Assembly (NCBI GenBank): GCA_918026815.1 | Contig: CAKJVC010000090.1 | Span: 310,001 to 374,000, forward strand | DNA from: Chalara sp. BL73 | Taxonomy: Eukaryota > Ascomycota > Leotiomycetes > Helotiales | Reading direction: 5' to 3' | Length of the DNA: 64,000 nt | Part shown: piece after piece, positions 5,980-35,400 of the stretch | Position numbering within the stretch: position 1 is the first letter of the stretch | How the letters are laid out: the number at the start of each line of letters is the position of its first letter | Translations under genes and position numbers: made by a program | The notes under the pieces: generated by a model | The model's input: the letters and a program-made list of their open reading frames with translations, nothing else | Told to the model about the DNA's origin: nothing | Database searches by the model: none

Positions 5980-6671
5980 AACTTAAGATGGATGGACGAA
6001 ATGTTCCCAGGTGGGACCCCTAGAATCTAATAAAGGATTAGGAAACTGAATGTGAACAGAACTGAAGCTACTTGAGCTGGCTCCCAGTTCTTATCGAGCA
6101 AGCAATCTGCAACAGCAGGCGCGCCGAGATGTTTGGCCCCACTGCATATTCGAAGAGCGCGCGGCCAGTTACTTAAATAAGGCATGCTGTACGAAGGGGA
6201 ATATTTATATCGAGAGCGAAGGAAAGCGGTCATCTTGAAACCAGGGCAACTATACGAATCCGCGTATACCGATCCAAATACGCTGGGCTAGCTTCATTGT
6301 GAGAGATGCACAAGTCATATTGCGTGCCGTGCTTAATGAGCCAGTCTTCTTGGCAGAGTGCACAGACCTCTGCACAGTCTGTTCTTTTATAGCTGGAACT
6401 TCTCCGACTAGTGAGGACGTATTCGTCGTATTCGTCGTATTCGTAGTATTTGCTGTGTTTGTGATATTTTTCGTATTCAACAGGGACTATGAGTGGCTGG
6501 CTGGTTATTCATCAATCTGGACATTGTCGCCCCCAGCTGTCAGACTATAAACTTTCTCCTCCTAAGAAGGTCCTCCTTTCGAAACTATTATCTTCAGGAT
6601 TATACCTACTGAGGAAGATCCTTCTTTCATCAAAGGGCTCCATGATCATGTAACACCCGCCAAGCGGGTTC
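5980..6671. other. Intergenic, upstream of RTA1 gene
   Basis: No supported gene. It holds the simple repeat at 6417-6478. Next to the transposon end (6563-6640) lie two imperfect direct copies of an AAGGTCCTCCTTTCG-like string. Confidence 0.4.
6417..6478. repeat. Degenerate TATTCGTCG microsatellite
   Basis: About six copies of a TATTCGTCG/TATTTGTGT-type nine-base unit in tandem. The Asn-Thr run this gives on the minus strand is a by-product of the repeat. Confidence 0.7.
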
Positions 6672-6723
6672 CAGTTGGGCCAGTCTAGAAAAGTCTTGGC
6701 CCAGTCTAGAAATTTTCTTGGCA
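6672..6723 (+). repeat. Left terminal inverted repeat, 52 bp
   Basis: Matches the reverse complement of 12359-12410 at 51 of 52 positions by eye. It contains two copies of the subterminal motif CCAGTCTAGAAA. Confidence 0.9.
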
Positions 6724-7012
6724 TTTTGCCAAGGAACGCTCTAGCCTGGCTCAACTCTTTGTGCAACCATTTCAAGCCTGGGTGAACTTAAGCGAAGGTC
6801 CAAATGTAGTTAGAATTCCGCTTGGCATGTGCACAACATAGGCTTAGCGTGTAGTGCCAAGCGAGCCGGGGAGGCGCGTCTGTGTAAACAAAGCTAGTCC
6901 CAATGTAGTAAGCTCGGCATAAGTCGTGCATATCCCCCACAATCCTCTGATTTTCTCTTTTTTCTCTTTTTTTCTCAAACAACATTGCTAATATATGCCC
7001 ACCATATTCCTG

Positions 7013-8759
7013 GTACATGCGATAGTCAGCTAACGGATGTACAGCATATGCTTAACATGTCCGCAGCACACTTCGACAACACGGCCGTCGCTGGCGCCAC
7101 CAACCCTAGTACTTTTGGTTATTACTATAGTGAGCATATGCAAATACGCGTTGTAGCACATACTAAGCATATGCAGGCCCTATTTCTAACAACAATGTTG
7201 GCTGGCTTCCCGCGTGTTAACAGCAGCATGTTAACGGTGGAAAATCATGTAAAGATATGCTTCGCATATGTTGAAGACATACTGACAAATAATAGCTCGT
7301 ACTGCTCTTAATGTTACAGTTGATAATAATAAAAGTAAGTACAAAAGCACTATACGCTATGCATGTGCTGAGCATATGCTAACTTTGTCTAAGATCCCTC
7401 TAATGCCGCTGTTGATTTTTTATCTGTCAATACAAGCGTGTAAGTAGCATATGCATATCACAAACAAAGCATATACTGACTATATGCAACTGTAGCATTA
7501 ACGTAAGTAGTGGCACAATGTGCAGTATTACTTTTGCTGCTCAACTTGCAGTATGTACTAAGCACAGTGACAGTATATGCCTCGCTAATACTATGCAGTT
7601 TCGTCGTTACATTCGTAACTCTTATCCCGGTGCCGGTAAATATATATATTTGTCGGGAAGATATACCGTGCATATACTGACTCTATACAGTTACTAATCC
7701 CAGCCGTGTTAATACTAGTATTTAAGAAACGGTCGCGAGTTAAAAGTTAGCGTAACACATGTTTTGCATATACTCAGCTAATACTTTGCTAGTACTATTA
7801 AGTTGCACGTGCTGTTTAGCGGTTGGCGCAATGCAGATTTTGCTTTTGAACCTGGGTAAGTATATGCCAACTTTATGCTTTGTATATGCTTATTTCTGCA
7901 AACGCGGCTTACTTGAAAAATTGATCGATCGCTATGCAACTGCATATAAAGAGATTGCGTAAGTCTAGCATATGTGCTGTATATGCTTCGCTAATGCTGA
8001 CAGTCGTAATAATGCTACGTTCCGTTTTAACTTTAGTAGTTATTTCTATCGTGCAGTAAGTGAATATAAGCCACGCATAGATCTAGTATATGCGTCGTTT
8101 TTCTTCTTTTTTTCATTTTGCTATATATACTGCTATTTATACATATATATATATATATACTTATTATCTAGTTTCAAATTAAATTGAAGGCCAAAAAGAA
8201 AATTGACTATATTTTCTCTGCCGTCATTTTACCAAATATTTTATTTAATATTTCTACAAACATTGCATTTACACAAACACAATATATGCCCAGCATAAAC
8301 ACAGCTACAATAGTCAATAAACAAACTTAACCAGTTGAATCGTTTTACATCTAGATTTAATTCAACTCAGTACAGCTTCAGCATATACTAACACTGTTTT
8401 AGCTTTTTGCTACTTTATTTTCTTCGGCTAAACGCAAAGTCAGTATTAACAGTGCATACATTGAGCATATGCTGACACTATATCAGCGTAACAATGATCC
8501 TTTTTAGTTTTTCGAGTCTTTTACCTGCGACAGAAGCAGTAAGTATATGTTAAGTATGTGCTAAGCATATGCTAACTTTACGTTCAAAAAAAAAATCTCG
8601 TCTAGCTACTAAGCTCGCTCGTGGTAGTGCTAGTGTCCGTAAGTTTTACATATATTGTGCATATGCTTCGCTAATATTAACAAGCAAATCTGCTTGTACT
8701 CGTAGTACTCGTGCTAAAGCCGGTAAAGCATAAGTTCTGCATATAAGTAGCATATGCAG
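7013..8759 (+). pseudogene. Intron-dense gene in the TIR element, function unknown
   Basis: Introns read by eye: 7013-7066, 7130-7176, 7249-7295, 7335-7393, 7440-7495, 7551-7598, 7636-7690, 7746-7792, then 7959-8003, 8056-8171, 8223-8304, 8439-8486, 8539-8605, 8639-8684 and 8723-8759. Most have GTAAGT-like donors, a CTAAC/CTGAC/CTAAT branch next to GCATATGC, and an AG acceptor. Exons 7067-7129, 7177-7248, 7296-7334, 7394-7439, 7496-7550, 7599-7635, 7691-7745 and 7793-7855 join in one frame with only three stops, all TAA (for example 7218-7220). Encoded pieces include TNPSTFGYYY, LFSGWRNADFAFEPG and, further on, NNATFRFNFSSYFYRA. I recognise no family. The intron after 7856 has no clear acceptor, so the frame is uncertain there. 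The first exon, upstream of 7013, is also unclear. Confidence 0.6.
8142..8159. repeat. AT dinucleotide run
   Basis: A pure TA/AT stretch inside the long intron-like segment 8056-8171 of the TIR element. Confidence 0.6.
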
Positions 8760-8879
8760 GCTTTCTAGCGTTAGGCTTTTGTTAGTTTTTTTTTTTTAAT
8801 GAACTTCGTTCTTTTTAATCCGTGCATAAAATATGCTTAGTATATACTTAAAATGTGAAGTGACATTATCGATTTTTTA

Positions 8880-11800
8880 ACTTCTCTAATTGCTGAAGCA
8901 GTTCTTGCTTTTGGTCAAGTAGTAGTTTACGTTTTTTTGCTTTTTTTGCTTTTTTTACTTTTGCTTTCAAAATATTGACCCGGCTTTTAATTTGCTTTAA
9001 TCCTGATTCTAAGTCTTTATTTTTTTTTCGTTTTTGACTATGTTCTTAGCTAGACGGTAGCGGCATGCTTTCTGTATATGCAGACCGTATACTACCGACA
9101 GTTTCTGTGTCTACTACAATAGTATCTTTTTTACTATTTCTATCATTTTTATCGGCCGTGTGTAGTATATGCTCTGCAGATGCTAAACTTCTACCGATTA
9201 AAGTATTGTACGCTGTTGTTGCATTAAGTCGATTTTTAAAGTATATAGTACTATCGTACGGATTCTTTGGGTTAAATAAAAAGTTGGAATGCGTTTTACG
9301 TCGATAAACTGCGTTTTGATAAAGTTTGTCTAATAATTCAATATATTAGTATACAGTATATATTTGAATTTGTACTAACTTTTTTTTTTAGTAAGCTTAG
9401 CGTATCGATTCTGTTCACTTTGATTTCGCTATGTCGATAAAACACATATATTATTTTGTACTTCGACTTTGTTATATAAATCGAATACATAAGCTCTAAG
9501 TCTAAATATTTAGTTAGTACATGCTTAACATAAGTATAGAATATGCTTACTTCAGAATTGCATTCAACAATAACGTTTTTCGCCCGGTGAAGTTGTTTTT
9601 TTGAAAATGACTACTTTTTGAATTTTTTGTGTGCTTTCGTGCAAAATGCTAATAAGCAATAAGCACTTTTGATGCTGATTTGGCCAGTTTAGCTATAAGC
9701 CAAATAGGTTGTTTATTTAAAATCCAAGTTTTAAGCTCTGAATATGTTTAGTATATACTTAACATGCGTTTCGCAATTTGGTTACTAGTTTCGCAAACAA
9801 ATAACTAGTTTAATAACAAATATTTTGCAAAGTGCAATGAATATACTTTTGCAAAGTTACGCTTAAGATGTACTAAGCAGAAAACTAGCATATGCTGTAA
9901 ATGTTCTGACTATTTTCGACTAGAATCTAGTTTATGCAAGTAATTTTTAAGTTTTTTTTAATTAGCATATATTTTATATATGCTCAGCATATGCTTACTA
10001 CTTGCTTGTTTTTTACACATATCAACTTTAACTGTTTTAAGTTTTGTTGTTGTATAATAGATATGCGAAAAGTGAATAATAAACCGGCCGCTATCGGCTA
10101 GTGTTGTAAACAATAGCTTAAATAGAACTTTGTACGCTTTACGGGAATTTCAATTTGTAAAAGTATAACAATAAAGAATAATACCTGACACAGACGTTAG
10201 TATATAGTAAACATATGCTAAAAGTATGCGTAGCATACGTTTCGTTACCGGATTCTATTTAACAAAAAACAAAAAGTTAGTTTTGCTAGCAACTATTTTA
10301 AATAACATGTCTACTTTCAAATGCTTACATTAAACATATGCTCGAGCTTGTTAAGCTGTACAACAAACAATAATAAAGTGTTTATTATCAAAAGTAAAAT
10401 AAACTTCTCGAATTTATTGACATTTATTAGTTTTGACTTGGTCAAATCGAAACTCTTGCTGAACTTTTTGTAAGTATTAGTAAAACATATACTGAACATA
10501 TACTGTGAAGCATTACTTAATATATTCGTTTTTTGTAGATATTGCTTAATCCGCTTTGCACGAATAAACGCAGCTAATCGATCTTTAATAGCTAAAAACG
10601 CATAAATTGCACAAAATAATGTAGCAGAAAACTTGTTTAGTAATAATTGATATTCAGGTAATAGAATAAAGCGCTCTGTTTATGTTAACTTAAATATAGC
10701 ATATGTTAAAAATATGCAAAGCATACGCGAAGTCTGTGCTAACACGTCGCTCTGTCGAATTGCTAATACAACGTTATTAGCAATTTAAATCGGAAGTCTT
10801 GTAGAATACGGAAAATAATGCGAATGTCGTTTCTGAGCGACAAGTAGTGCATATAAATATCGAATTATATTGAAAAGAAAGTATATATTAAACTTTGCTG
10901 TACAATTGTTATAAAAAACAACACGACTTTAACTTTGCGAGTAATTATGCTCTGCGCATACAGTTAACATATGCTTAACATATAATAACGATATACTAAC
11001 TACAAAGCTTCCGTTTACTTGTTTTATAGCCGACGTAAATACAATAACTTTGTAATTCTTGGTACTTTTAATTTACTAGCGATTTCAAGTACTTTATATT
11101 AATGCGATTAGACATTTTTAGTATTGAGCTAGCTAAATGCTAAAGCTCTTGTTCACAGTTTAAACTGCAATTAAGAAAAGTTACTTGTATATAGTCAGCA
11201 TATACTTATCGTATGCTACTTATATACTGACCCTATTTCGAACGAATATAGTAGCTGGCTTTTTTTTGCACGTTTTTTTAACTTTATATATGCATCGATA
11301 TACATTTTGATTTTAAATTGTTAAAAACCCGTTATAAAAAGCTTTAGTTTCAGCTCGTAGCTTATTTGTAATTAAAACTGATACAACTTTTTGATTTGCG
11401 TATTGCTGTAAATTATTAATATTCGTTAATTTAACATTATTATATGCAAAGCATATACGTAGCACATTTTCGTAAGCAAATTCACAATGCTTGATCTTTA
11501 AGCAGTTATATAACAAATAATGAACTTAGTAGTTGTTTTCGAAAATTAACAGTTTAGTAGTTTTTTGCTTAGTTTCGAACAAAAAGAATTGAATTTAAGT
11601 TCTCTATATATTAGCACAGTATGCTTTCGGCATATACTTAGCATACTTTCGACATCTGCTTTCGCGCAACTCGAAACATATCACTTTTGGTAGCGTCGAA
11701 AAAAAATAATAGCTTAGCGAAGTGTACGAAATGTGCAACACTTTCAGAACTAGTCTTTAAATAATAAGGAATATCGAAGTAGTCGAATACTTCCGTTACA

Positions 11801-12121
11801 GAAACTGAAAACCGGCTATTACTATTCAGCGTACAGCTAAAACTTTTAAAGGAAAACTGCATATTGTAAACATATGCAAAGCATATTTTGGAATTTATTC
11901 TTACTGCAAAAAAACCTATTATAATAAGTGAAACAGTTAGCGTATTTTCAGTATATACAGTCGATTTCGTGTTATACGAAAAGAACGAAAAATAGCTTAA
12001 AGTATCGTTGTCGTTATTTCGAATAGAAAATAGTTTTTTAACATTCGTCTAGTATATGTTCAGCATATGCTAAATATATACTTCGTACGGAATTCTACTT
12101 ACGCTAAGCTCGTTTATTCAT
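8880..12121 (-). pseudogene. Intron-dense minus-strand gene in the TIR element, transposase candidate
   Basis: Exons 11856-11647, 11603-11466, 11405-11232 and 11164 to about 11000 join in one frame. The introns at 11604-11646, 11406-11465 and 11165-11231 carry the same TATGC/GCATATGC and branch-site signature. Stops in these exons are TAA, TAG or TGA at positions readable as CAA, CAG or CGA. The fourth exon encodes EIASKLKVPRIT followed by an Arg-rich stretch, weakly like the psq-type helix-turn-helix of pogo/Fot1 transposases. The last long exon (about 9307-8880) encodes LNATTAYNTLIGRSLASAEH and ends in a Lys-rich coiled coil containing LLLDQKQELLQQLEKLK. That layout fits a fungal Fot1-like transposase C-terminus, but no catalytic triad was traced. 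An ATG at 12121 is a possible start. Confidence 0.5.
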
Positions 12122-12358
12122 CTAATTACAAATTTACTTGCAGTAGTTTTTATAGTCGAATTAATTAAGCAATGCAAAAGTACAGAATTGTAACGTTTTC
12201 ATTTCAAAATTTAAAAGTTATAATATACGCGTCGCAATGGAAAACGCGAAGCGCGTTTTTTTGGCATGGCTTATTTTATGCTTGGCATATGCCGGGGTGA
12301 GATTTCTAGACTGGCTGAGCTCTTAGAGCTACGATTTCTAGACTGGGCCAAGTTTTTT

Positions 12359-12410
12359 TGCCAAGAAAATTTCTAGACTGGGCCAAGACTTTTCTAGACT
12401 GGCTCAACTG
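12359..12410 (-). repeat. Right terminal inverted repeat, 52 bp
   Basis: Inverted copy of 6672-6723. Two further partial copies of TTTCTAGACTGG lie just inside, at about 12303 and 12334, forming a subterminal repeat cluster. TA follows at 12411. Confidence 0.9.
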
Positions 12411-13470
12411 TAAGCCCCCCGCCAAGGCAAGATTAGTGTCAGAAATAGGATCTATTAAGTAGAGGAATCAATTGGAGGATCTGTGAAGGTATCACGGCGA
12501 TACAATATGGGTTTGTAGGAGCGTTGCGGATGATATTGTCTACAATTCTATGCCGTAAATATGTGTGTGAAAGAGATTTCCAGCTCCTTGGCCTACTTAC
12601 GTAAGCCGATTCCTGACAATTAGGAAGCTGGTTGAGTGAAGGAGCTACCAGACTTTGCTTCCAAAAAGCATGCCGGGCATACGGTGTCTTGCACACCGCT
12701 TCTATAGTTTTGACACGGCATTGTGATTGTGGGGGACAACATCTTGAATAGCTCGACCGCTGACCTGGGCATTCGTCTATGTGTGCCTTTAGCTAGATCA
12801 ATGTTCTCTGACAAGGTGTCCATAGTGAACGCTGATCCAATAACGGTTGATTTGGCAGTATACCATGTTTAAATTCGGTGACGTAGTCATAGATGCAGCC
12901 GCCTTCAAATTGATATTCTGCTAATCGCAATCTAAACCTTCTTGCAGATTGTCTATGTCTTATCTACTCTTCTCACAATCACTTTGCCAATCTGTTCAAT
13001 AGCTCCGAACGCAAATTTCTCCTCTCCATTCTCGAAAGCCGTTCCCAGAAGGGCATCACATTTCGTCGGATCGTTCGTCTCCAACCATGCACAGTCATGC
13101 GACTTCTATTTCCTTAACCCCTTCCGCCTCCCTTTCGCGCACCCAGTGCTCGATATCATCATACAGAATTTCATCTTTGCCAGCACTTACTCATATCCAA
13201 TTTGTGAGAACTGCATGCCGGTCAATTGTTGGTTTCGGGTCCAAGAAGTCGATGTTTGGATGCTTGAGTGAACTAGAGAGATCAGAGCCGAGGATCCTTG
13301 TACGGCTTTGCAGGACGCGAGGGGATAAGATTTCTTTTCTTGCGTTGCGAGCAAGGGGGTCGGGTGCTGATGTGAAGGATAATGCGGCAGGTAGCAGAAG
13401 TAAGCCTCTCAGCTCTGGCCTTTTGATTTGGTCACGAGAGTCTTCGATGTTATGTGATTAGTCGTTGGGT
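12411..13470 (-). other. Possible coding relic, minus strand
   Basis: On the minus strand, 13400-13210 reads as an open segment with LKHPNIDFLDPKPTIDRHAV. A second frame at about 13100-12950 gives CAWLETNDPTKCDALLGTAF and GAIEQIGKVIVRRV. These look like protein-coding segments in different phases, so introns or frameshifts must separate them. I do not recognise the family, and no start or end can be fixed. It may be a broken gene beside the transposon. Confidence 0.25.
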
Positions 13471-19907: not shown

Positions 19908-22900
19908 TCATGGAGTCAACCCTGGCCTGTTCGGAATAGGGTGGCCAGGGAATCTCTCCCTTGCTACGACAAAAGTGTTAAAAACGTGAGTCATCAACTT
20001 CCCAAAATGCTTAATCTCCTCTCGACTGCGATTCGTCTTACCCGTAATCCGATCCGGCTGCAAGAAAGCCTCCCACAACAGACTATAGATCCAGCTGAAA
20101 GCTCTATGGCGATCCGGGTCAACATATCGTCCATTCTGCGCCGCATCAATATCGAGATCGACGCCCGCTTGCTCGAATGCGGAGCGGAATTCTTGTGGGA
20201 AAACATGATGCCATTCGGCGACTCCGCGCCGGTCTGCTAGCTGATCTGCGGCCATGTCTTTGAGCATCTGTTCGAATTTGTCGACAGTCCAGTCGAGGAG
20301 TTTGCTGAGAACCCCCTTCCATTTCTCTAAGGTTTTTGGGTTTTTGATTTCGCGCCACGGCTTCGGCTTGAATTTTGGGTTATCGGGCGTTTGCTCAGGT
20401 GGCTCTTCTTCCGGCTCTGCGGGATGCTCTTGCGGTTCGGCTTCCTGTGGTGGTGATTCAGGCTCAGCTGGCGTCGTTTCAGGAGGTGCATCTGGAACTG
20501 GTGTATCTGGTGTTCCAGGTTTAGGGACAGCCTCTGGTTCAGCAGGTTTTGCTTTCCCCCATTCTGAAACCTTTCCTCTTAAATAATTGTACCCTTCTTT
20601 GGCTTTCTCTTTGCCAATATCCCACCCTCGCTTTGTTTTATCCTTAGCAACATCCCAACGTTCCTCAATCGCCTCTCCGGCTGAGCTGGCGGCTCTTTGT
20701 AAGGCAGGTTGTGCGTTGTGAATCGCCACAACCGCCATCGCCGAAACGGTCAGAGCAGCAGCTGCTACAACCTCAGCCGCTACATAAACCCCGAAAATGA
20801 CCACGGGTATAAATCTACCGTCAGGGTCTTTATAGCAGATTGGATTGCTGCGCACAAATTGGAAAATGTTCGTCCCATCTTTCATGCCCAAAGGGTCCGC
20901 GCTTATCCAGCGGACAATTGAAACTGAGTAATACCGGTACCCGTAATAATATAGTCCACTTTCTTCGTCTTTCTCCTTGGCAGAATACCTGTATCGCTTC
21001 GGCGCATCTACCTGCGAGACTGCCGCAGAATAGGACGTTCCACCATATGCGAAATACTCCTCGTATGTTATGACTTTTGCAGAACCGTCGAGCTCAAGGA
21101 CTGAAGAGCCAAGCTGATTACCGAATTGGTAGCGTGTCAACTCGGCTGGGCTAGGTGAACTGCCTTTGGTGAGAGTCTCATGAACGGAAAGCTTTTCGTC
21201 GCCAATAGAGATTACAATAGTTTCTCGTTCAAGGTCGATTCTTGATCCATCTCTACCATACTTTCGGTATACTTCATAAGATCCAATGTAGATGCGTTCA
21301 CTGGATCGGGTCGTTGATTGACCTTCTTTGCCATGGCGTCGGGTAAGCTTTCGTATTCGTTTACTACCATTTGCATACTGGTACCACGTTGTTTCCGGTG
21401 TGCCCCCAGAGCGCTGCTTAGCCGTCGCTTGCAATTGATCTCTGAAGTCCCATTTCATCAGAGAAAGATTGGGCATTGATGTGATGTTGCCCATTAATCC
21501 CTCATTTCCTTCATACCCGAAACCCTGAATTCGATCCCCAATGCTTGTGGAGCTGAGGCGGTTACTATATCTGTCTGGTTCCAACTGGCTACGCTCATGG
21601 TAGTTGAAGATCTTGGTCCAATTTTGCTGCCCCATGTGGCAAATCTTAAGCATATTTCCTGCTCCATCGTAGAAGTAATTCTCCCGATATCGGGCCATCG
21701 CAGTGTCGTCTTCGGCGTGGTGTGACGGAGTGGCATGTCCATGTTCGGTCTTAATTTGGCCTAAATGCTCACGGCCAGAAGCAGACACAAGGCGATAGAG
21801 TGCGTCGTAGGTATAATCATTGCTCGGATCAACCTTGTGATTCTGGAAGAATATTGACTCTTGAGAATCATCCTGAATATATGAAATATTACCCATAGAG
21901 TCATAGGTATAGATCAGGTCTTGCAATTTGCGAGTCCGTGAAGCTCCTGGTCTTTCTTCGGGTGAGCTATCTCGATTTTGGGATTTGGATAATATTCGCG
22001 TCAAGCGGAATACCAGAGGGTCATATTCGAATATGGTCTCAATCCCATTTCCCAAGCTATACAACACGCGCTGGCCGCGAGCGTTATATTGAGCATCTTT
22101 CAGCACGTACGTCCACTCACCCCGTCCATGTAAATTCATCTCTACCTGTTGCATTTGACCCAACCGGTTGTATGCATGCCTAACGACGCTCTCCTTATCC
22201 GGTAAAACCTTCTCAATAACCCGGTTGAGCGCATCATATTTCCACGTTGTGAGGAAGATCTCAGACTCGACTGTTATGTCGTCCGGGGTTGACCAGTCAA
22301 TTATTTGGTCAACTTGTGCGGCAAGTGTACGACCCTCAGATAGAAGGTTGCCTTTAAAATCGAAATTTTGTGTTTGCTTGATTCCACTCTGATCACGAAA
22401 GAGAACTGCTCGGGTCCTAATATTATTTTTCTCGGCATCCACCTCACTTTCGCCGTATATGGTTTCCGACACAAGGTATTGGACGCCACCTACACTCAGG
22501 AACTCTTTTACTTGACGTTGATCTGTATCATAAATGACGCTTGTTTCATACCCCCGACTATTCCATGTATAGATAGGCTTTTTCACACAATCAAGGAGAG
22601 ACCACGTTTGACCTCCTTCCATGCTTGATTTGTGGAGCATATTATGTACCATGTCATACTTATTGATTTCCGCTTTCCGGCCCAAGGGATCGAGCACCTC
22701 CAGGATATTTCCGGTGATGTCAAATACTGTTCGAGAGACGAAGAAAGACTCTTTGACTAGCTCTCCGAGCTCCCTTTTGACTCGATCGTATGATGTGTTG
22801 ATGATATCACGCCCAAATCCATCAAAATAATGAGTTATCGGAGTTCCAGCATAAACCGAAGCTTTCTCGGCTGCTTCTTGAGCACGACGGCCTAGAGTGC

Positions 22901-25900
22901 CATCCATTCTTGTTCGATACCAGCTTGGAGAATAATCGGCTGTGGGTAAATTCTTGAAGTATCCTTGCACGTCGATGTCTTCATTCGGATTCAACAGTAT
23001 GGTATCGGCTCGATCCCAGACTTGTTCGCTCCATGGTGTCTTAACAACTTTGCCCCAAGTATGGTCCGCGAACATGTTGACTACCGGCCGTTGAAGAGGA
23101 TCATACAAAGTTATGGTGCTAGCTCCATTGATCGCCTTGGATTGGTAGTTATGGATGTGTGCATATATTGGCTCATATTTCTTAATGACGCTTCCCTTGT
23201 TGTTGAAAATTTCCCACCCGCTAGTAATCCATCTTTGAGCTCCCGTTTGAGGGTCTGGTTCAGCTAGAGCCTTGGTCTGTATAGCACGACCCGATGCATC
23301 GGCATAGACGAAAGACAGTTCAAGTCGGCTATGGTCGCCTGGAGTGATTTGGGATATGTGAGTTTCTCGGACGATTGCTGCGGTAGTTGGGGGATGAGGA
23401 TTCTCGGACGAGCGAGTGCGGAAGTAGGCAAGATCATCATAGATGAACCGTGTTGTTGCATCTCCAAGAAGTGCAGCCTCACGTCCAATAGGGTCAGAGA
23501 GATAGGAAGAAATCGCTTGCTCGGTCAAGAATTGCTTGAATCCAGAGAGTTCATCCCCTTCCCTCTGTCCTGGCTTCCCCATAATGGCTTTGGCTGTTAG
23601 TCGTGCTCGAACATCATACGCGTAAGCATTGACATTCCTATTGGGGTCCATGATAATGGCCGGCTCGAGAACTCGATAATCAATTGATTTCAAGACCAAT
23701 GGCTTCCTTGAATCTTCGTTCCGAATCCCGGCCGTCATTCGGTTTCCTACGGAATCTTCGTGTTCAAGTACCAATAAATCATATTGGTCATAAGTTATGC
23801 GAGATTCTGAGCGAAAAGAGGAATTGTAGAATGGGTCACGAAAACGATGTGGCATAAAGAAGTGTCTTGCAGCATAGTCGAATTCCTGCAGAGAAGAGTG
23901 AGATCGATCTGGAGAGTAGAAGACTCGGCCAGAAGGGGCCCACCACGCTGAGCTTCCCTCGAGTTGGACATAGCCACCCCGCGCGCGCATGATATAAGTC
24001 AGAGCATCCCCGGACGGCATTTTCCCATCCTTCACAAAAATTTCCTGAAGCTGACCTTTGGTAAGCACTTGTTGATAGTTCTGGAATGGGATTGCGAGTG
24101 ATTGAACCTCGCCAAAAGGGAGAGCTTGCGAGAGATCGTTACTATGAAATTGTGTTCGAATATCCTGCAATAGGCGGCGATGCACGTGGGCTTTATCAGC
24201 AACTACTGATGTGTTCACTTCGAAAGGGATGTCATGTGCTCCATTCTCGACGCATCGGACCAAATCCGAGATCTCAGAAAATGTATACAGCCATTGAGCA
24301 CGCTTAGTTATCTTGGATGGAAAATTGACTAGCTCAGAAGACGTAGTATTCCATAATAGAGGTACTCTCCAAGAATCTTCTGTCTTGACCAGATTGGTAT
24401 ATTGATTAATGCCCAGAACCATTTGCGTCTGTTGCTGCCGTCGATGGTCGACATCATTGAGAAGAGAATCTTCTTCCTTGTGACAGCGACCATAGTTTAT
24501 GGCAACGGTCCGAAGAACGTTTCCGAAAGCATCCACAGACATTACAAGAGAATGAGAAACCCGAGGATCCACCTGCAATTTCCCGGGTTTGAGTGTGCTG
24601 AGTCTCTCATATGTGAATTCGACACTCTCTCGTGGATGTGTGAAGAATACTGCTTGACTGTTCGACTCCAAAGGTTCCAAATCACCGACTGGTTGGAAAC
24701 ACTCGACGGTGTAATTCATCTGCTTCACCGTGTAAGGGTGATCTTGGAAAATTGTCCCGTCGAGTCCATACACCTCTTCCCGAAGCATCATGCCTTTGAG
24801 ACTTCGATAGATCTCTCGATTTTCCCGGGTATTAAAGTCAAATGGGATTTCTTCGTTTCCGAATCGAATCTTTTGGGGTAAAGATGATAATGGCAATAAT
24901 GATCCTATTGCTGGCGGGCTTTCTCGATAAAATTCATCCTCATACTGCTCGGCAATATGGCGACCCTGAAGGTAAGCCCCGGTTTCATACCATGACTTAG
25001 TGAGCACTGGAGGACTGCGGAAAGCAGGATCGTAATTCGTGGCGACGTCATCAATTCCCGGAAGCGTGCTTTGAAATTCTTCACAATCGATGCTCTCCAC
25101 CATCCCAAAGCCTCTAAATTCGCGTTCAAACGGATCGAAGAACCCATCATGGTATGCATACCGTGTCACAAGCTCGTTTCCACTGATACGATCAATCGTA
25201 GTAACCTTCTCAACGACTTGCACAGGAAAGGGCAATCTTGTCAGCCAAGGTTTTCCTGCTGCTTTGTCTTTCAAGTAAAATGAAGTTGAACTTTTGTATG
25301 TGATATACGTTTCGGAGCCCAGATTGTTTTTCATGCACGTGAGCAGGTACGGTTTTCCTTGCTTCATCAAGTCCAAGTAACGCATCTGTCGCCTGCTATC
25401 ACTCAGATGACCGGAGCTCCAAACTAAACAGCCCGTTCCATGACCGAGGAGATCCACAACGGAAACCGCGTTCATATCGTCAACAGTAAGGAACGGCCCA
25501 AGCCTTGAACCTGAAGACCAAGAATTTCCAGCTTGATTCAGATAAAGCACTGGGCCATTTTCATGGAGATATATCATGTCCGATAATCCAGAGCCATCCA
25601 CATCTGCGAGACGGATCCGACGTTGCTGGAATTCATCAGAATACTCGAAAAATGGAGAATTGTCCATGCTGACTTTAGCACCGAATCGGCCATACCCTAA
25701 AGAAGGCCAATAACATGATTCCCCGTTCCTGATCCGAACCAAGTCAATTAGGCCATCTCCGCACATATCAGCCAGGAATATGGATTCATTGTACATTTCC
25801 AGAAGCAGGCGCGGTCCTTTGTCCTCGTCGATCGGTGGCCTCCAATACTGCGGTTCCAAAAAGCCATCCTCTCCAATCCCAGGGAACCAGGTGAAGACCT

Positions 25901-27587
25901 CATCATTTACAATCAAAATATCTGTAAGGCCGTCGCCAGTCAAATCGATCATCCGTGTGTTAGGGTCTTTCCAGTTGATTTGAGGCAAGAGTGGAAATGT
26001 GCGAAACGGTTCCCACTCATTTTCAAGAACCCAATCACGCTTATAAAACCCTGGTGATGGGCCATCGAGTTGCACAAAATCTAGACGCCCGTCTCCTGTC
26101 AAATCAATGAATTGTTCCTGAATTGACACTGGTGGAGAGGTTGGTAGAGATTGTGTTGCAGCGAACTTTCCATTCCCGAGGTTTGCTTTGTAGTAGTACT
26201 GACCGCCCTGTTTAGTGAGAATGCCGGGAACACCTTCAGCATCCAAGTCAACCCAGTGGTAAAGCTGGTCATCTACTCCAGATGGGATGCCCTCCAAAGA
26301 TACAGGATCTAAATCTTGCACTTCTGTTGAGACCTCTGCTTTGCTATAATCGAACTCGACAGGGGCAAACGAGTCACATATATAATGAGCTTCTCTCCTT
26401 ACGTAACGCCGATGGGTTATCGAAGATACCAAAGACAAAACAGAAGCATTCTCGAAGGGAGATGTTGTATCCTGCCTGTACGCAAGATCGGTAGATCCTA
26501 CAAGATAGTCCCTACCGATGTTCGCCTCTTCAGGGAAATGGTGGAACATGAGAATCCTCCGGCATAGCCGATACTTCCTCACTTCAAAACATGACCTATA
26601 GACTGAGAATGGATCACGTCGGACAGGCCAAGGTATGGTTTCGGCTGGCGTAGGACACTCCATATGATGCTCCCCATAGTCGAAAACCAGCTCAAACATC
26701 CAGTCCAACGAACCAGATGCTGAGCACAAACCCTTTGGGATGCGGTTTCCATACTTGATTCGTTTAGGGTATCTCGCAACAGTTCGGTACTTCTCATCGC
26801 GGTTGAGCTCATGCGCATTGGTGACATCCACACCTTGAGAGTTTTCAGCTTTGTAATCATACTCAGTGACGTTTCCCTTGTCATCAAAAACTTGACTTAG
26901 GAGCCAGCTAAATACTCGAGTTGGGTTGTTGGGGTCAAATATCCTAGATTCCAAGCTAGTACCGTACAACGAAGTGACATTCTCTTTTGTTATGACTCTC
27001 CAATGACAGTCAGAAGTAGAAGTATCTGTCCAGCTTTCAATCCGCGAGAAACTGCTCTCGATTCGTGGCCGAAAGGATTTGATGCTAAATTTGGTGCCTC
27101 GAACAGTGTGCTGGATAGGTTTTGACTTGGTCCAATATCCATCAGAATCCAATGCTCTATGTGGGACTAAATCCTCTAACCCAGAGTTTATGAAAACATC
27201 TGAATCGGTGACATCATTGTACCGTGGGAGGCCTTTGTCGGTTTTTCGAGTGATAGAAGGAATTGATAGATTCCAACCGAGTCCAAATGGTCCGTTCCCC
27301 ATCCCAGAATCGTATGAGAAGTTCAACTGAGGACCAAAACCACTCCTTCCGCTACTTGCAAATATTGGAATAGACACATTTCCAGTGCCTGTAGGTCCCG
27401 AAACTTGAAATTTCTCGCCAATGCCTCGAATAGCTCCTCCACCTTTCGGAACACTAACAGTAAGAATTCCACTCTCGGGATTGGAGATTTCAGGGGTCTG
27501 GTTTTGAGGAGCGAGAGTACCATCGCCAGACTCTGCTGGCGGCCACTGCCCTCCGCCGCCATTAGATAAACTGTTTTGTGTCTCCAT
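19908..27587 (-). CDS. Tc toxin TcB-TcC fusion with a nuclease-like C-terminus
   Basis: A single uninterrupted frame of 2559 residues. In order it has a SpvB-type domain (about 40-330), four FG-GAP/VCBS-like repeats with TGDG or GDG/DGSG cores (about 490-700) of the TcB propeller type, and a TcB middle region with EREFRGFG near 819. YD-type RHS repeats follow (about 1500-2230), then the RHS core end with SADPLG near 2229 and DPDG near 2255, where the family's aspartic self-cleavage region lies. In bacterial Tc systems TcB and TcC form a hollow shell that encloses the cleaved C-terminal effector. Here the effector region has a hydrophobic helix (2257-2289), a Pro/Glu-rich linker (about 2343-2402) and a domain with WHHVFPQ near 2458 and an Asp-rich NGRYVDPDRHRA stretch. 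That looks like an AHH/HNH-type (DUF2380-like) nuclease, by inference. No signal peptide is visible. No intron in 7.7 kb is unusual here and fits bacterial ancestry. Confidence 0.93.
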   Translation of the reverse strand: METQNSLSNGGGGQWPPAESGDGTLAPQNQTPEISNPESGILTVSVPKGGGAIRGIGEKFQVSGPTGTGNVSIPIFASSGRSGFGPQLNFSYDSGMGNGPFGLGWNLSIPSITRKTDKGLPRYNDVTDSDVFINSGLEDLVPHRALDSDGYWTKSKPIQHTVRGTKFSIKSFRPRIESSFSRIESWTDTSTSDCHWRVITKENVTSLYGTSLESRIFDPNNPTRVFSWLLSQVFDDKGNVTEYDYKAENSQGVDVTNAHELNRDEKYRTVARYPKRIKYGNRIPKGLCSASGSLDWMFELVFDYGEHHMECPTPAETIPWPVRRDPFSVYRSCFEVRKYRLCRRILMFHHFPEEANIGRDYLVGSTDLAYRQDTTSPFENASVLSLVSSITHRRYVRREAHYICDSFAPVEFDYSKAEVSTEVQDLDPVSLEGIPSGVDDQLYHWVDLDAEGVPGILTKQGGQYYYKANLGNGKFAATQSLPTSPPVSIQEQFIDLTGDGRLDFVQLDGPSPGFYKRDWVLENEWEPFRTFPLLPQINWKDPNTRMIDLTGDGLTDILIVNDEVFTWFPGIGEDGFLEPQYWRPPIDEDKGPRLLLEMYNESIFLADMCGDGLIDLVRIRNGESCYWPSLGYGRFGAKVSMDNSPFFEYSDEFQQRRIRLADVDGSGLSDMIYLHENGPVLYLNQAGNSWSSGSRLGPFLTVDDMNAVSVVDLLGHGTGCLVWSSGHLSDSRRQMRYLDLMKQGKPYLLTCMKNNLGSETYITYKSSTSFYLKDKAAGKPWLTRLPFPVQVVEKVTTIDRISGNELVTRYAYHDGFFDPFEREFRGFGMVESIDCEEFQSTLPGIDDVATNYDPAFRSPPVLTKSWYETGAYLQGRHIAEQYEDEFYRESPPAIGSLLPLSSLPQKIRFGNEEIPFDFNTRENREIYRSLKGMMLREEVYGLDGTIFQDHPYTVKQMNYTVECFQPVGDLEPLESNSQAVFFTHPRESVEFTYERLSTLKPGKLQVDPRVSHSLVMSVDAFGNVLRTVAINYGRCHKEEDSLLNDVDHRRQQQTQMVLGINQYTNLVKTEDSWRVPLLWNTTSSELVNFPSKITKRAQWLYTFSEISDLVRCVENGAHDIPFEVNTSVVADKAHVHRRLLQDIRTQFHSNDLSQALPFGEVQSLAIPFQNYQQVLTKGQLQEIFVKDGKMPSGDALTYIMRARGGYVQLEGSSAWWAPSGRVFYSPDRSHSSLQEFDYAARHFFMPHRFRDPFYNSSFRSESRITYDQYDLLVLEHEDSVGNRMTAGIRNEDSRKPLVLKSIDYRVLEPAIIMDPNRNVNAYAYDVRARLTAKAIMGKPGQREGDELSGFKQFLTEQAISSYLSDPIGREAALLGDATTRFIYDDLAYFRTRSSENPHPPTTAAIVRETHISQITPGDHSRLELSFVYADASGRAIQTKALAEPDPQTGAQRWITSGWEIFNNKGSVIKKYEPIYAHIHNYQSKAINGASTITLYDPLQRPVVNMFADHTWGKVVKTPWSEQVWDRADTILLNPNEDIDVQGYFKNLPTADYSPSWYRTRMDGTLGRRAQEAAEKASVYAGTPITHYFDGFGRDIINTSYDRVKRELGELVKESFFVSRTVFDITGNILEVLDPLGRKAEINKYDMVHNMLHKSSMEGGQTWSLLDCVKKPIYTWNSRGYETSVIYDTDQRQVKEFLSVGGVQYLVSETIYGESEVDAEKNNIRTRAVLFRDQSGIKQTQNFDFKGNLLSEGRTLAAQVDQIIDWSTPDDITVESEIFLTTWKYDALNRVIEKVLPDKESVVRHAYNRLGQMQQVEMNLHGRGEWTYVLKDAQYNARGQRVLYSLGNGIETIFEYDPLVFRLTRILSKSQNRDSSPEERPGASRTRKLQDLIYTYDSMGNISYIQDDSQESIFFQNHKVDPSNDYTYDALYRLVSASGREHLGQIKTEHGHATPSHHAEDDTAMARYRENYFYDGAGNMLKICHMGQQNWTKIFNYHERSQLEPDRYSNRLSSTSIGDRIQGFGYEGNEGLMGNITSMPNLSLMKWDFRDQLQATAKQRSGGTPETTWYQYANGSKRIRKLTRRHGKEGQSTTRSSERIYIGSYEVYRKYGRDGSRIDLERETIVISIGDEKLSVHETLTKGSSPSPAELTRYQFGNQLGSSVLELDGSAKVITYEEYFAYGGTSYSAAVSQVDAPKRYRYSAKEKDEESGLYYYGYRYYSVSIVRWISADPLGMKDGTNIFQFVRSNPICYKDPDGRFIPVVIFGVYVAAEVVAAAALTVSAMAVVAIHNAQPALQRAASSAGEAIEERWDVAKDKTKRGWDIGKEKAKEGYNYLRGKVSEWGKAKPAEPEAVPKPGTPDTPVPDAPPETTPAEPESPPQEAEPQEHPAEPEEEPPEQTPDNPKFKPKPWREIKNPKTLEKWKGVLSKLLDWTVDKFEQMLKDMAADQLADRRGVAEWHHVFPQEFRSAFEQAGVDLDIDAAQNGRYVDPDRHRAFSWIYSLLWEAFLQPDRITGKTNRSREEIKHFGKLMTHVFNTFVVARERFPGHPIPNRPGLTP

Positions 27588-29472: not shown

Positions 29473-32400
29473 ATGTCGACCCTCCTCGTGGTTACCATAG
29501 TTCCCAATGTGCCAACCTCAGGATCAGATTTCCAAAAGTACCTAAATGGACTGCAAATAACGGCGTGGGATCGGACAGTTCGTAATACTAGCCCAGATCT
29601 CGCGTTAGGAGAGGAAGATGTTCTTCTGGGAACAGCTTCAGGTCTTGCGATCCCAGGGACAACCGCCTCAGGATCACAAACACCGCCTATATTTACAGTA
29701 GTTCCAGGTAGTAATCCACCAGCGTATGGAAATTCCATCGTTCAGCACCTCCAAGCTGTCATCACGCAGCCACCACCCCCGCTTCCTGGCCTTCCTCCTC
29801 CTCCTCCAATCACAACTTACCTGCCACTGGCTGCAGCAACTGCTCTCATTGTGGTCAATCTTGATTCCAACAAATACCAGGAGTATGTGGACCATCTTAA
29901 TTTTGATGTACGGATGTCCTATGCACGAGTTCTGACTCCAGGACAACCGGCAACTCCAGTTCCCATACCATTGACCATTGAATACAACATTCAGCCGTGG
30001 TCAACACTGAATGCGAATCCACCCTCATCTGATATTACCGGCAACCCAAATACCTACGATTGGGCCCTTGGACTCCCGACAACCTTATACTCCTGGCTTC
30101 CCCCGCCACTACCTTCGGCGTCCATTGCGTCTGTAGCTCTTGGTGATGCCTCCGCACCGCCGAATTTCTTTGCCCTGATAGCTGCTATCAACCTAGTCTT
30201 AGCAAAAGACAGCCCTTCGACTTGCCAGAGTTTGGAAACCATGACAGACCCGCTGACAGTTGCACAGTGCTCAGAAATAGCTTCTGAGATCATGTATGAA
30301 CGAACTACTGATCCGCCCCCGCCCCCTCAGCTGCCAAATGGTAATGGTATTGAGCTCTTTTATGACACTAGTCTTAATACAAACACTGTTGATGGAAATT
30401 CGGGCTCTCCAACCTGGGTACGTGGTTCACTCTTATGCTGTGAAAAGCTAAAAGGAATACTTACTTCAAACCTAGGACCAAGTTAGACAATCATGGGAAA
30501 CAAGTTGGTCTGCGTATCACGCGACCAGAGATGCCAATGCATCCAGATTAGCCCAATATGTCTTCGCAGTACAAGCCGCTGTATGGGCTGAACTTCAGAC
30601 CAAGATCGCCCCAATTGCAACGATTGACGTGGTCATTGATCCCGCTCTTAAGCCCTCATCATCGACTAATTTATCGATTCTCCTCACGGCCCCGGATCCT
30701 TCAAACCCCCCACGACCGATCTTACCGCTTGTACCAGGCTTCTATATCCCAGCTGTATACTTCTACGCGTTGGGGGCCAAATTCCCAATGACCATGTCTC
30801 CGGGAGATAGATTCAAGGCCGCAGTCACAACTCCAATGACAACTCTTAGTACAACATTGCAGATTGCACTAAACACAGGCATTCTCAAGGATCCAGAACC
30901 GCCGTCTACTATGGGGAATCCTCCGCCGCCAAATTTGAGCCTATATCTGGCACAAGCAACTCGTCGAATGGCCGCACTCTCAGCAAAATTTATCACTGGC
31001 CATGAACCGACTATTAACCTAATCCCAGGGAGTCAAGTTACTACTCTCATCGAAAATTGGCTTTCTGATCAAACTATAACTGACCCGAATGAGTTTGTGA
31101 CCGAGTTTTGGGCATCGCAAATATCTCCGCCGCCTCCCGCGACAATTCCTCCCCTGGATGACTACTTATACCTACTTTTAAATATTATTGCGGGCGGTAA
31201 CCAATCCTTTGTAAATGCGATACTCGGCTTCACTGTTCCTAACACTCTACCCACGCGGACCGTTAAATATACCACAGATCTTCTTGCTATCCAAGACACT
31301 ACTTGGAACGCTGTATTTCAGACAGACTCTACACTGCTTCCATCTTTTACAGCGCCCGGCAATTTAGCGAGGAGGTCAGCCGCGTTCATCGTTTTTCTCA
31401 GGACTATCTTCTCACCTGCGATTAATCCCGGCCAACCGGTTGTCGTAAACAACAGTCCCGCGGCTGTACTTGGCCCTGTAAGCGATGTCTTACAGCAGTT
31501 TATAAATTCCTACTCGCCAGCAGGTACCTTTACCTTCATGGGACCACTAAATAAATCACAGGTAGAAGCAACCTTGGCAGCCGCATTCCCGGGAGATCTC
31601 GTTGTTCAGAACTGGGTTAGAAATGCGGTAAATGTCATCAGCGATTTGCTAGGAATTGTGACTACAGCATCTGTTCCGGCAAACCTTCAAGTGTCTTACA
31701 TGGAAGGCCTTTACGCTCGAGGGTTCACCTCAGTCGACAGCCTTATGTCTGTATCCCAAGCCCAGTTCATTGCTGCCATGATTGGAACCGTGGTGTACAG
31801 TGATGCTAGCGCAATACACAGCGCTGTAGTGTCAAGTCCCCCCACCATGCCTGAAGGTCCGAGTTTGGGATTCCAGCCAGTCAATGACGGCTCTCTGGTG
31901 AACTGCGTTCCGCCTCTTCATCTGTCACCCCTTGGACCAGCTCAATACCTATCAGAAATGCTCAATACCGAGATTGATACCAAAACGCTGTTTGAGCTGG
32001 TTTCAGCACGTCGAGGTGCGTTAGGGTCTCTTGAGATTACCAAAGCCAACTTGGAGCTCCAAATTCCACTCATCGACCTAGTTCTTGAGAGCTTAGAATT
32101 TGCAGCGGCTAGTACAGCAGCTCCTGGTGCTATTTATGGGACAGATCCCAGGGCCATTCCTGAGCATCATATAGGAGCAGAATGTCCAGAGAAGATTGAG
32201 GATCTCATTGTAGCTGTGCCTCAACATTCTTCGCCTTCGCTTTCAGCCTCACAGCTAGACGCGTACGGTACGCTAGAGACATGCTTTACCAGTCCCGGCC
32301 TGCCTTACTCGCAAAAATTGGACGTGTGTCGGTCTTATCTTCATCGACTATGTACAACTCGATTTGATGTAATGCGGCATTTCCGACAGGACATAACCGA

Positions 32401-35400
32401 GTACCCTTTACTGAGCATACAGAATGCATCTCTCTCACCGACAGATTTTAATAAAACGGTCTGGAGGCTCCCAGTTGAATTCAACATTGCTCTAGAATAT
32501 CTGCAGATTTCTCAGTCAGAGTACAGTTCTCTCTATGCTGGAAACTTCCTGGTCAATATGACGTCGACGCTATACGGCGTCAGCCCATCAGCAGATCGGA
32601 ACTGGCGTCGCGATGTACTGCAGCTACCAGTCTTCTTACAGACTACAGGTTTGTCATACTGTGAGTTTGTTGAGCTGTGGAAGTGCAACTTCATCCCTTT
32701 TGGCCCACAGGCGAATGAGCGAACCGGTATTCTTGATACATTTCCTGATTGCCCTCCCTGCTGCCTGGACAACATCTTCATTAGTCTAAACGTGGATGGC
32801 GATGATACTCAAGTATTGTTGCAATTAATACTCTTCATCCGTCTCTGGCGTAAATTACACCACGACTGCCGCCTGGGCGATATTTCCTTTGCCTTATTGG
32901 CTGACATCTGCCAAGTTTTGGGCCTTTTCGACTCGTCTGGCGCTGTTAATCCCGACTTCGTCAGGCAACTAGCTTCTTTGCTAATGCTTGTGCATTACTT
33001 CCAACTCCCCTGGGGATTTGATCCAAGTGTCACAAGCGGTGGTGCACAGAAGACGAAGCTTCTTGGGTTGTGGCCTAGATCGCCAACTGCTCCCACGGCT
33101 TGGGCGCTTGACACCCTTTTAAGATGCACAGAGAATTTTGCGAGGCACTGCTTTGAATGCTGTGAACGGGATGCGGATTTTATTAGGATTTTGAAGGATA
33201 ATCTAACTCCTCTGTCCTGTTTGGCTGGTTTCTCACAAACCAATCTTTGGTATGCTAACCCAACAAGTACCATTCGGTTTACGGAAGTGTTGGCCAAGAT
33301 CTGTGCCTCGGACTTCACAGTTGGCGAAATTATCTTCCTCTTCACAAACGACAACCATTTGGATGGAGATGATCCATTTCCTCTCCCAGAAAGATCAGAA
33401 TCTCTTGAAATGCCCCTCAATTGGCCGGAAGATGACTCCCACGGAATCTGGGAGTTACGAGAGAAGCTCCTCTGTCTTGAGATCGGCGATGAGCATTGTG
33501 ATGAATGGAGTTGGAACAAACTTGTGGATACAATGCAAGACTTAGGGAAGAAGGATACGGTATCGATTACGGCGTTTGGAGAGCATTTCTTCCCCGAAAC
33601 TTTAGAGAGGCACGGGCATCCTGTGAGCGCTAAGGCACGACGATGGGGTGTCCCTCTTTCCACCAGCCAGACTACCCCTATGATGTGGCATGCCGACCCA
33701 TGTTGGCCGTTCCACTACGAATATGGCGAGCAAGAACCAGAAAGCCTAGAAGCGCATTCTGGTGCAGTATTTGCCGGCCAGCTTTGGATTCAGCTTCCGC
33801 TTCGGGATGAGGATGTGTCTCGTAAGATGAGAAATTCTCGTCAGTTGCGAGACGTCGAGATCAATGCCGTGCAGGATCTCTACTTTGCTCCTCGTGCTAT
33901 GATTGCACCATTCGCATTGGTATTCTCCAATTTTGACCGGGATATCAGCTACATGATTCAAGAACCCGAAGAGCACAAGCGTTTTTGTTTCTTCCAAAGG
34001 CAATTTGCACTGTTCTTCAAGCGATGCAGGGTTATCGCGGAGCACCTCGCCTGCCATGTTGGTTTCAATTGTAACTGCGTTCACCCTTCAGGCTGTTGCG
34101 ATTGCAAGAAACCAGATATCGAATTAGCGTGGCGTATATTGCAAAGCTTAATAGCTGATGAGAACTTCACGACGGACTCGTGGGAGGATCCTTCCGGCAG
34201 GCTTCCGCCTCCATCGAGTTTTGAGTGGGACCCACAATTTTCCGGGAATGGTTTTGCTGCCTTGCTTGGACTCGCTGGGACCGGCCTTTTAGGGAAGTAT
34301 AATGTTGGATCAACTTTGACCTGGGCTGAGATGCGAGGTGGACTTAGTGCTTTTGGGAGAACCGAAGATCAGTGGAGCACACCTGTTCCAACCATCATTC
34401 CATCTCTCAGTGCACTATCCACAACTGATCCTGGCGATCTCACCATATTCAAGAATGGCTTTATCTTACGAGATGCTAATGGTGAAGCACTTGACGGCTC
34501 ACAACCCTACTCGGTGGTCTGGAAAGGACTGTTGCTTGTCGACTGTCGTGGTCACTATAAGTTCAGAGCATGCCACCCAAAACATGACGGTCACCCAGAA
34601 TGTCACCAAGAGCGCGGCGAGAAGTGGATTGTGAAAATTGAGCGAGGTCAGAAGCATTGGGTTCTGCTCAACAACCACTCTCCTGGACTAGCAGCTCCTC
34701 CATTTGAATCACTCCAAGTCTGCCTAAATCGCGGAGCATATACCATCACAGTCGAATTCAAGCAGACACTGCCTGGCAAAGACCATCGCAAACACTTAAA
34801 ACACTTCCGCTCCGGTTTTGAGCTGAAATATGAAGGTCCAGATACCAAAGACTGCCTTGAAGTTGTACCATTCCGTAGATTAATTCAGAACTGGAAGACA
34901 GATAATCCGCTCCGGGTTCCAGTTTACGACGATAGCAGCAACAGCCCCTTACAGACTAACACAATCATCATCTCAAACACTGCCAAACAGTTCCTTGAAT
35001 TGCAGTATATCAGTACCATTAGAGACATTCGCAGGACGTATCAGCGAGCTTTTAAAGCTGTACTTCTTGCAACCAAATTCTGTTTGTCGGTTCGCAGGAT
35101 CGAGTGTGACTGGCAATCAGAACTTGGTTTCATGCTAGATCATCCTCATCGCTTCCGCGGAACTTCCTATACGCTTCCAGCATCTGGGCCAGCTACCACA
35201 AGCCACGTGAACTTCAACTTCAATTTCCTGCCTGTCAAAGATTACTATGGTCCGAATACTCCGGACTTACGCGAGAATCCTAGTCTGGCGAGACAAGGTG
35301 CCTTGTTCGATTGGTGGGAGCGGCTCTTCGATTACGCCACACTAAGATCTCGTGTACGTGAGCGGTTTTGTCGCGAAGTTTGGCTTCTTTTCGAAGAAGC

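Follow-up and report, generated by a model that had tools for sequence, protein, structure and literature searches.

Short introns largely made of an 11-bp tandem unit in a decayed Mutator/IS256-like transposon of the ascomycete Chalara sp. BL73

Introduction

Why should a DNA transposon have its genes divided by very many short introns, and what are these introns made of? The question is raised by a 5,753-bp element of the ascomycete Chalara sp. BL73 (Helotiales), bounded by DNA-transposon ends and a target duplication at positions 6665-12417 of a 64,000-nucleotide stretch of contig CAKJVC010000090.1 (forward strand, 310,001 to 374,000; assembly GCA_918026815.1). This whole stretch is referred to as the window, and coordinates are those of the window unless another contig is named. 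A sequence-only reading had described a transposon with terminal inverted repeats (TIRs), two opposing genes and many short introns, a description now backed by homologous ascomycete proteins. To our knowledge, such an intron density lies outside what has been described for such elements. Taking the evidence as a whole, we consider it probable that this is a decayed two-gene Mutator/IS256-like ascomycete transposon whose introns are largely DNA-level arrays of an 11-bp unit, a component that had been missed previously. The anatomy of the element is well supported, and from it we infer the function.

Results

The short introns consist largely of an 11-bp unit

The two genes together have 20 short introns, 12 in a plus-strand accessory gene and eight in a minus-strand transposase gene, and these are largely tandem copies of the unit CATATRCTNA(C/G). 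The element contains 24 perfect copies of CATATRCTNA, the mean for its shuffled versions being 0.16; the 58 kb of window outside the element have none. By sequence class, 18 are in the 1,009 nt of short introns, two in long introns, four elsewhere and none in 2,850 nt of exon, where the intron set includes the stretch 11471-11406 and has slightly different bounds for two introns, and where intron 11646-11604 and its preceding exon are counted as elsewhere. With one mismatch allowed there were 47 copies in introns (shuffle 3.09), 10 in exons (shuffle 1.86) and 21 outside the element, the exons too showing some excess over the shuffles. The unit is partly palindromic and therefore scores on both strands. 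Tested against dinucleotide-model shuffles, identity at lag 11 was 0.465 in the 20 short introns versus 0.297 (z 8.4), with a z of 5.6 at lag 22; in the exons of the accessory gene the lag-11 identity was 0.219.

Read from the donor, a typical intron comprises the donor, three or four 11-mers and a short tail, and the last full 11-mer mostly ends in CTAAC, CTGAC or a similar sequence that constitutes the branch site. The best register of the unit was position 6 (modulo 11) in nine of the 20 introns and position 0 in six, the other five having other registers; none of 2,000 shuffles attained either a largest class of nine or a top-two sum of 15. In the register-6 class, 8/9 donors are GTNAG at the place of the CTNAG tail of the unit, and in the register-0 class 3/6 donors are GTATGC at the place of its ATATGC. 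Both donors are one base off a stretch of the unit, which also includes the branch-site core CTNA. Judged by this correspondence the donors may have arisen from unit sequence, GTAAG being in any case a common fungal donor. The idea that the introns are shaped by RNA hairpins was rejected on fold energies that were not better than those of shuffles (mean z -0.30, 20 introns).

Unit arrays in the genome follow the transposon family

The genome (58.66 Mb, 199 contigs) contains 64 matches to a strict two-unit pattern (31 forward, 33 reverse) versus none for the reversed pattern; introns with a single unit are missed by it. Within 0.6 kb of loci found by TIR or element there were 52 of these matches, and one more, clustered with four others, was about 0.66 kb off. 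The remaining 11 fell at nine loci (L084-L092), all nine of which match the element or its miniature inverted-repeat transposable elements (MITEs). All 64 two-unit arrays are thus in, or no more than 0.7 kb from, sequence of the transposon family. At L087, L089, L090, L091 and L092 the family match is mainly through the TIR and the arrays, with little other interior in common, and these loci are further MITE-like subfamilies with different interiors.

MITEs that lack the accessory and transposase genes carry the arrays in both orientations, and the unit is more regular there. An array in the right subterminal region of the element (12042-12086) is kept in MITE copies, and the one strict two-unit match of the window (9977-9997, plus strand; C84:319977-319997) is inside the minus-strand intron 9998-9953, on the other strand. 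In several MITEs opposed arrays overlap, which produces a 36-bp palindrome centred on GCATATGC (C3:387002-387037, C7:2005606-2005641, C168:585241-585276 and others). Since the arrays are kept in MITEs without the genes, and in several as an opposed palindrome, they point to a role at the level of DNA.

The accessory gene

The accessory gene (7057-8733, plus strand) was modelled by homology with 14 exons, 13 introns and a 738-nt coding sequence including the final TAA; an automatic spliced-gene model had exons that were partly wrong and was set aside. The exons are 36-73 nt in size and are located at 7057-7129, 7177-7248, 7296-7334, 7394-7439, 7496-7550, 7599-7635, 7691-7745, 7793-7855, 7902-7958, 8004-8055, 8403-8438, 8487-8538, 8588-8638 and 8684-8733. 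Between them are 12 short introns of 45-59 nt (7130-7176, 7249-7295, 7335-7393, 7440-7495, 7551-7598, 7636-7690, 7746-7792, 7856-7901, 7959-8003, 8439-8486, 8539-8587 and 8639-8683) and one long intron (8056-8402). The alternation of short plus-strand exons and introns noticed from the sequence is hereby extended from seven introns to 13. The single frame in which eight of these exons had been joined is nearly open, with one stop under the revised boundaries, but it is a shadow frame and not the coding frame; the frame that matches the homologs has three TAA codons in those eight exons and four stops in the whole gene.

The plus-strand read-through matches P0003 (Bisporella sp. PMI_857, E 1e-66), P0004 (Tricladium), P0005 (JGI source) and P0006 (Bisporella). 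In pairwise alignments of the spliced reading, 12 of the 13 joins are spanned by at least one of these proteins with a net gap of no more than one residue. At the exon 4/5 join the smallest net gap is two residues, in P0004 and P0005; in the multiple alignment these two residues sit a few residues downstream. P0005, from a 994-bp contig of JGI source, may be a transcript and is continuous through the first nine joins. In P0003 and P0006 the end of exon 5 is absent and the alignment restarts at the start of exon 6; most of exon 8 is also absent from P0006, which restarts within one codon of the start of exon 9. These restarts suggest that acceptor sites are held in common.

A possible single C2H2-like finger was found in two of the four homologs, below the Pfam cut-off (E 0.02 and 0.065), and is partly changed in the window copy. 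The Pfam scan of P0003-P0006 gave no family above cut-off, and the structure prediction for P0004 had a predicted local distance difference test (pLDDT) score of 33, too low for use.

The transposase gene

In the window the two genes are convergent, the accessory gene ending at 8733 and the transposase gene near 8867. The latter (8867-11860, minus strand, 5' end uncertain) is a decayed Mutator/IS256-like gene with the homologs P0001, P0002 and P0007-P0009. Its read-through (721 aa with X at stops, partly misjoined) matches P0001 of Tricladium varicosporioides (E 1e-109) and P0002 of Penicillium argentinense (E 1e-18), and P0001 as query added proteins of Elaphomyces granulatus, Hypoxylon sp. 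FL1857 and Annulohypoxylon bovei. P0001 and the accessory homolog P0004 both come from Tricladium contigs of 2,312,472 bases, and in that fungus too the two genes are probably on one contig.

Eight short introns of 43-54 nt were placed at 11646-11604, 11000-10952, 10726-10676, 10516-10464, 10238-10185, 9998-9953, 9550-9502 and 9379-9330. At the last seven, P0001 aligns on both sides with one to three residues between (one expected, split codons being omitted); for 11646-11604 the support consists of phase and splice signals. Further non-coding stretches at about 11471-11406 and about 11315-11113 are less certain. The minus-strand alternation of exons and introns, previously followed only to about 11000, is therefore real and runs on to about 8867 with transposase homology, although upstream of 11114 it is less certain. 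One exon stretch, 9738-9785, looks like an array intron; it aligns without gaps to P0001 and P0002 and was consequently not counted as one.

The family of the transposase was approached in several ways. PF10551, the Mutator-like element (MULE) transposase family, was matched by three of the five homologs with E 0.042-0.12, all below the 27.6-bit cut-off, no other family being matched by two or more of them; the broken window transposase gave no PF10551 match in a Pfam scan. One of the five had an IS256 match (E 0.11), slightly outscored by two unrelated NCBI families. For the RNase H-like DDE fold expected of the Mutator superfamily, a low-confidence transposase model (pLDDT 48) had as its best fold match ISCth4 (PDB 6xg8 and 6xgx), an IS256-family transposase, at 9-12% identity. 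Among the five homologs compared, D297 and E417 of P0001 are invariant in 5/5 and D219 in the four that cover the position. By their conservation these three are candidate catalytic residues; in the window copy the residue facing E417 is not Glu. Sequence searches of solved structures yielded nothing useful. No signal came from a profile comparison with the MULEs of this genome taken singly, the probability not exceeding 2.5; since single-sequence templates are weak, this was not counted against membership. The genome also holds fifteen MULE copies with an equal score of 70.1 bits (for example L057, L059 and L060), of which 13 have open frames of 662 aa; this family looks young and little mutated, unlike the decayed element.

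Boundaries, class and copies of the element

The inverted repeats described from the sequence are present, but they are 59 nt rather than 52 nt long and adjoin a perfect 9-bp duplication. The left TIR (6665-6723, plus strand) matches the right TIR (12359-12417, minus strand) at 55/59 positions, with ends set by the MITE copies, and the core of the right TIR, CCAGTCTAGAAA, has two more copies just inward, within about 12298-12358. The TIR ends are G-rich (CGGGTTCC and GGGCTTAC; in MITEs often GGGGTTAC). The target site duplication (TSD), CCCGCCAAG, occupies 6656-6664 on the left and 12418-12426 on the right with 9/9 identical bases. The exact edge of the element was taken from short relatives in the genome, L002, L003 and L037, whose flanks have 9-bp duplications there. 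In a check of both ends at 30 loci, 13 gave no end pair and 17 did; eight of these pairs match at 9/9 bases and the other nine at 3-7/9, being mutated or mispaired. The AT-rich core seen earlier is confirmed, the GC content being about 30% at 8001-12000 versus 46% in the window outside the element.

The block is a decayed autonomous two-gene copy of a Mutator/IS256-like DNA transposon, a placement made because of the 9-bp TSD, the G-rich TIR ends and the relatives of the transposase, with their weak MULE matches and ISCth4 as best fold match. A comparison of intact copies in the host genome had been proposed; the DNA search of the genome with the element interior found no second full-size copy, its sole full-length match being the window, and otherwise returned short MITE-type pieces, the counts being lower bounds. 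Short non-autonomous relatives number in the dozens. Genome protein searches with both read-through proteins gave nothing above noise except the window locus; a weak match at C59:499910 (E 0.35) was dismissed as noise, and that locus holds a fragment of the transposon family.

Two MITEs on different contigs, L008 (C92:7230-7912) and L010 (C27:653038-653717), have the identical 9-bp flank GAAACCGAT and a PF10551 match about 1 kb from each; the common flank likely reflects a segmental duplication. Two copies on C83, 7.4 kb apart, also have flanks in common. Just outside the element, at 6418-6453, is a small tandem repeat, CGTATTCGT.

Decay by RIP-like mutation

The accessory gene has four in-frame stops ahead of its final TAA, and the minus-strand blocks that were read have 16. 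All four accessory stops face Gln in P0003; against P0004 three face Gln and one Ala, and the two covered by P0005 and three covered by P0006 all face Gln. Of the 14 transposase stops aligned to P0001, six face Trp, four Gln, two Lys, one Thr and one Glu, with two stops not aligned. Furthermore, the terminal AG is absent from three accessory introns (ending at 7901, 8587 and 8683). Given these stops and lost acceptors, the window copy should make neither protein.

The direction of change was compared for eight homologs, P0009 being left out. Transposase mismatches explained by C>T/G>A only, versus the reverse, were 121 vs 27 of 271 for P0001, 71 vs 18 of 315 for P0002, 69 vs 13 of 263 for P0007 and 76 vs 22 of 353 for P0008; for the accessory gene they were 36 vs 18 of 78 (P0003), 44 vs 8 of 108 (P0004), 31 vs 6 of 90 (P0005) and 30 vs 15 of 60 (P0006). 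The composite index of repeat-induced point mutation (RIP) is above 0 in two of the 32 two-kb bins of the window, both in the element (8001-12000). The C>T/G>A signature that broke both genes is RIP-like. An alternative code with TAA/TAG as Gln, raised when early stops were all TAA or TAG, was rejected because the minus-strand stops also face Trp and Lys and include TGA, and because the C>T/G>A bias is general.

Discussion

The structure of this element suggests that a DNA repeat belonging to the transposon itself can act as ready-made introns. The transposase would act on the TIRs to bring about cut-and-paste movement, as is usual in this family. Most likely the primary role of the unit is that of a DNA-level binding site for a protein encoded by the element. 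The best candidate for this protein is the accessory one, two relatives of which have a possible zinc finger, and failing that the transposase; the binding might serve transposition or protection from silencing. Arrays would then have grown inside the genes and been tolerated because they were spliced out, so that array growth made introns. We propose, tentatively and at somewhat less than even odds, that the unit is an intron-forming repeat, that is, a protein-binding unit that contains a branch site and is one base from two donors, such that a growing array readily becomes a spliceosomal intron. If this is true, the element can load its genes' coding sequence with sites for protein binding while its proteins are unharmed, and introns are gained as tandem repeats grow under selection for binding to DNA, anti-silencing being one example.

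The closest working model is the VANDAL/VANC system of Arabidopsis, VANDAL21 and VANDAL6 being Mutator-like. VANC21 binds a 9-base motif that is arrayed in one orientation in non-coding DNA, tandem repeats of the motif also occur in introns of VANC21 and VANB21 (PMC5735166), and VANC counteracts silencing (PMC10398659). VANDAL and the Chalara element both combine a transposase with accessory gene(s), and both have tandem arrays of a short motif, nearly confined to the family, in introns and other non-coding DNA. They differ in that some VANDAL introns contain arrays, whereas those of the element are largely made of array, in register with the splice sites, with 12 short array introns in one 0.74-kb coding sequence. 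The motif and the accessory protein are also different, the latter having a possible C2H2-like finger in two relatives.

Hop-type fungal MULEs and the PF10551 MULEs of this genome have hallmarks of the Mutator superfamily that are also found in the element; in contrast, its transposase is below the MULE cut-off, whereas a number of the genome's PF10551 MULEs have long open frames, some above 600 aa. ISCth4 is a prokaryotic insertion sequence, with 9-12% identity through a low-confidence model.

Among other explanations for the introns, the one that survives best, though we consider it unlikely, is an introner-like multiplication in which one founder intron was copied into many sites of the genes by reverse splicing or DNA insertion, the 11-bp repeats being the interior of the founder. 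The introns do resemble one another in sequence and size, and one gene has very many of them; fungal introner-like elements, many short introns similar in sequence, are described in PMC9860276. However, the introns of the element share a period of 11 bp, in which unit number and register vary, rather than one copied sequence, and the arrays also occur in MITEs without the genes and in both orientations. Furthermore, introners spread through host genes and are recognised as near-identical introns in many unrelated ones, whereas every two-unit array that the genome pattern revealed was with the one transposon family.

Less probable again is that the arrays act in homology-based silencing, either attracting or confusing the repeat sensing of the host. 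The element is RIP-like mutated, and RIP in Neurospora senses partial homology at 11- or 12-bp periodicity, but the likeness is so far a mere coincidence of number, and a period of 10 was strongest in another set-up (PMC4858203 for both).

Two further explanations are already contradicted and, to an equal degree, hardly credible. That the unit is merely an extended host branch site in AT-rich sequence would fit its branch-site core CTRA, but not the periodicity at lags 11 and 22 beyond that of the dinucleotide-model shuffles, the absence of perfect units from the other 58 kb of the window or the arrays in MITEs without the genes. That RIP itself produced the TA-rich motif would fit an AT-rich element with RIP-like mutation, but the exons of the same genes, also mutated, are without a perfect unit, and the motif is more regular in MITEs. 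Least credible of all is a Tc1/mariner-pogo element, the frame of reference of the sequence-only reading, which would account for TIRs and many short relatives but is contradicted by the 9-bp TSD in place of TA and by the lack of any Pfam match to DDE_1 or a Tc1-type domain in the read-through or homologs, the TSD, G-rich TIR ends and transposase relatives together indicating a Mutator/IS256-like element. A pogo/Tc1 reading of the minus-strand C-terminus was likewise dropped once the homologs and the 9-bp TSD were known.

The novelty of the element is that motif arrays largely constitute the introns. A literature search that mostly did not cover subscription papers found no case of introns made of a transposon's tandem unit, which is weak evidence of absence. 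The origin of new spliceosomal introns is an old open question for which introners provide the best-known bursts. The sequence described here suggests another source, in which short tandem repeats with built-in splice signals are kept for a job at the DNA level and removed from the coding message by splicing. Motif arrays of the VANDAL/VANC kind would then occur in fungi as well as plants and be linked to the gain of introns. The presence of relatives in sequenced ascomycetes, among them Tricladium varicosporioides BGZ60DRAFT_165405 and BGZ60DRAFT_165252 and Bisporella sp. PMI_857 B0O99DRAFT_695963, makes the array-intron reading directly testable.

Neighbouring genes in the window

Beyond the element, the window contains two very long open frames, at 19908-27587 (minus strand) and 30629-38533 (plus strand). 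One of them encodes middle domains of the SpvB and TcdB types, with a best E of 6e-108, and the other an ABC toxin N-terminal domain (E 3e-15). These two frames are Tc-toxin-like genes in an ascomycete genome.

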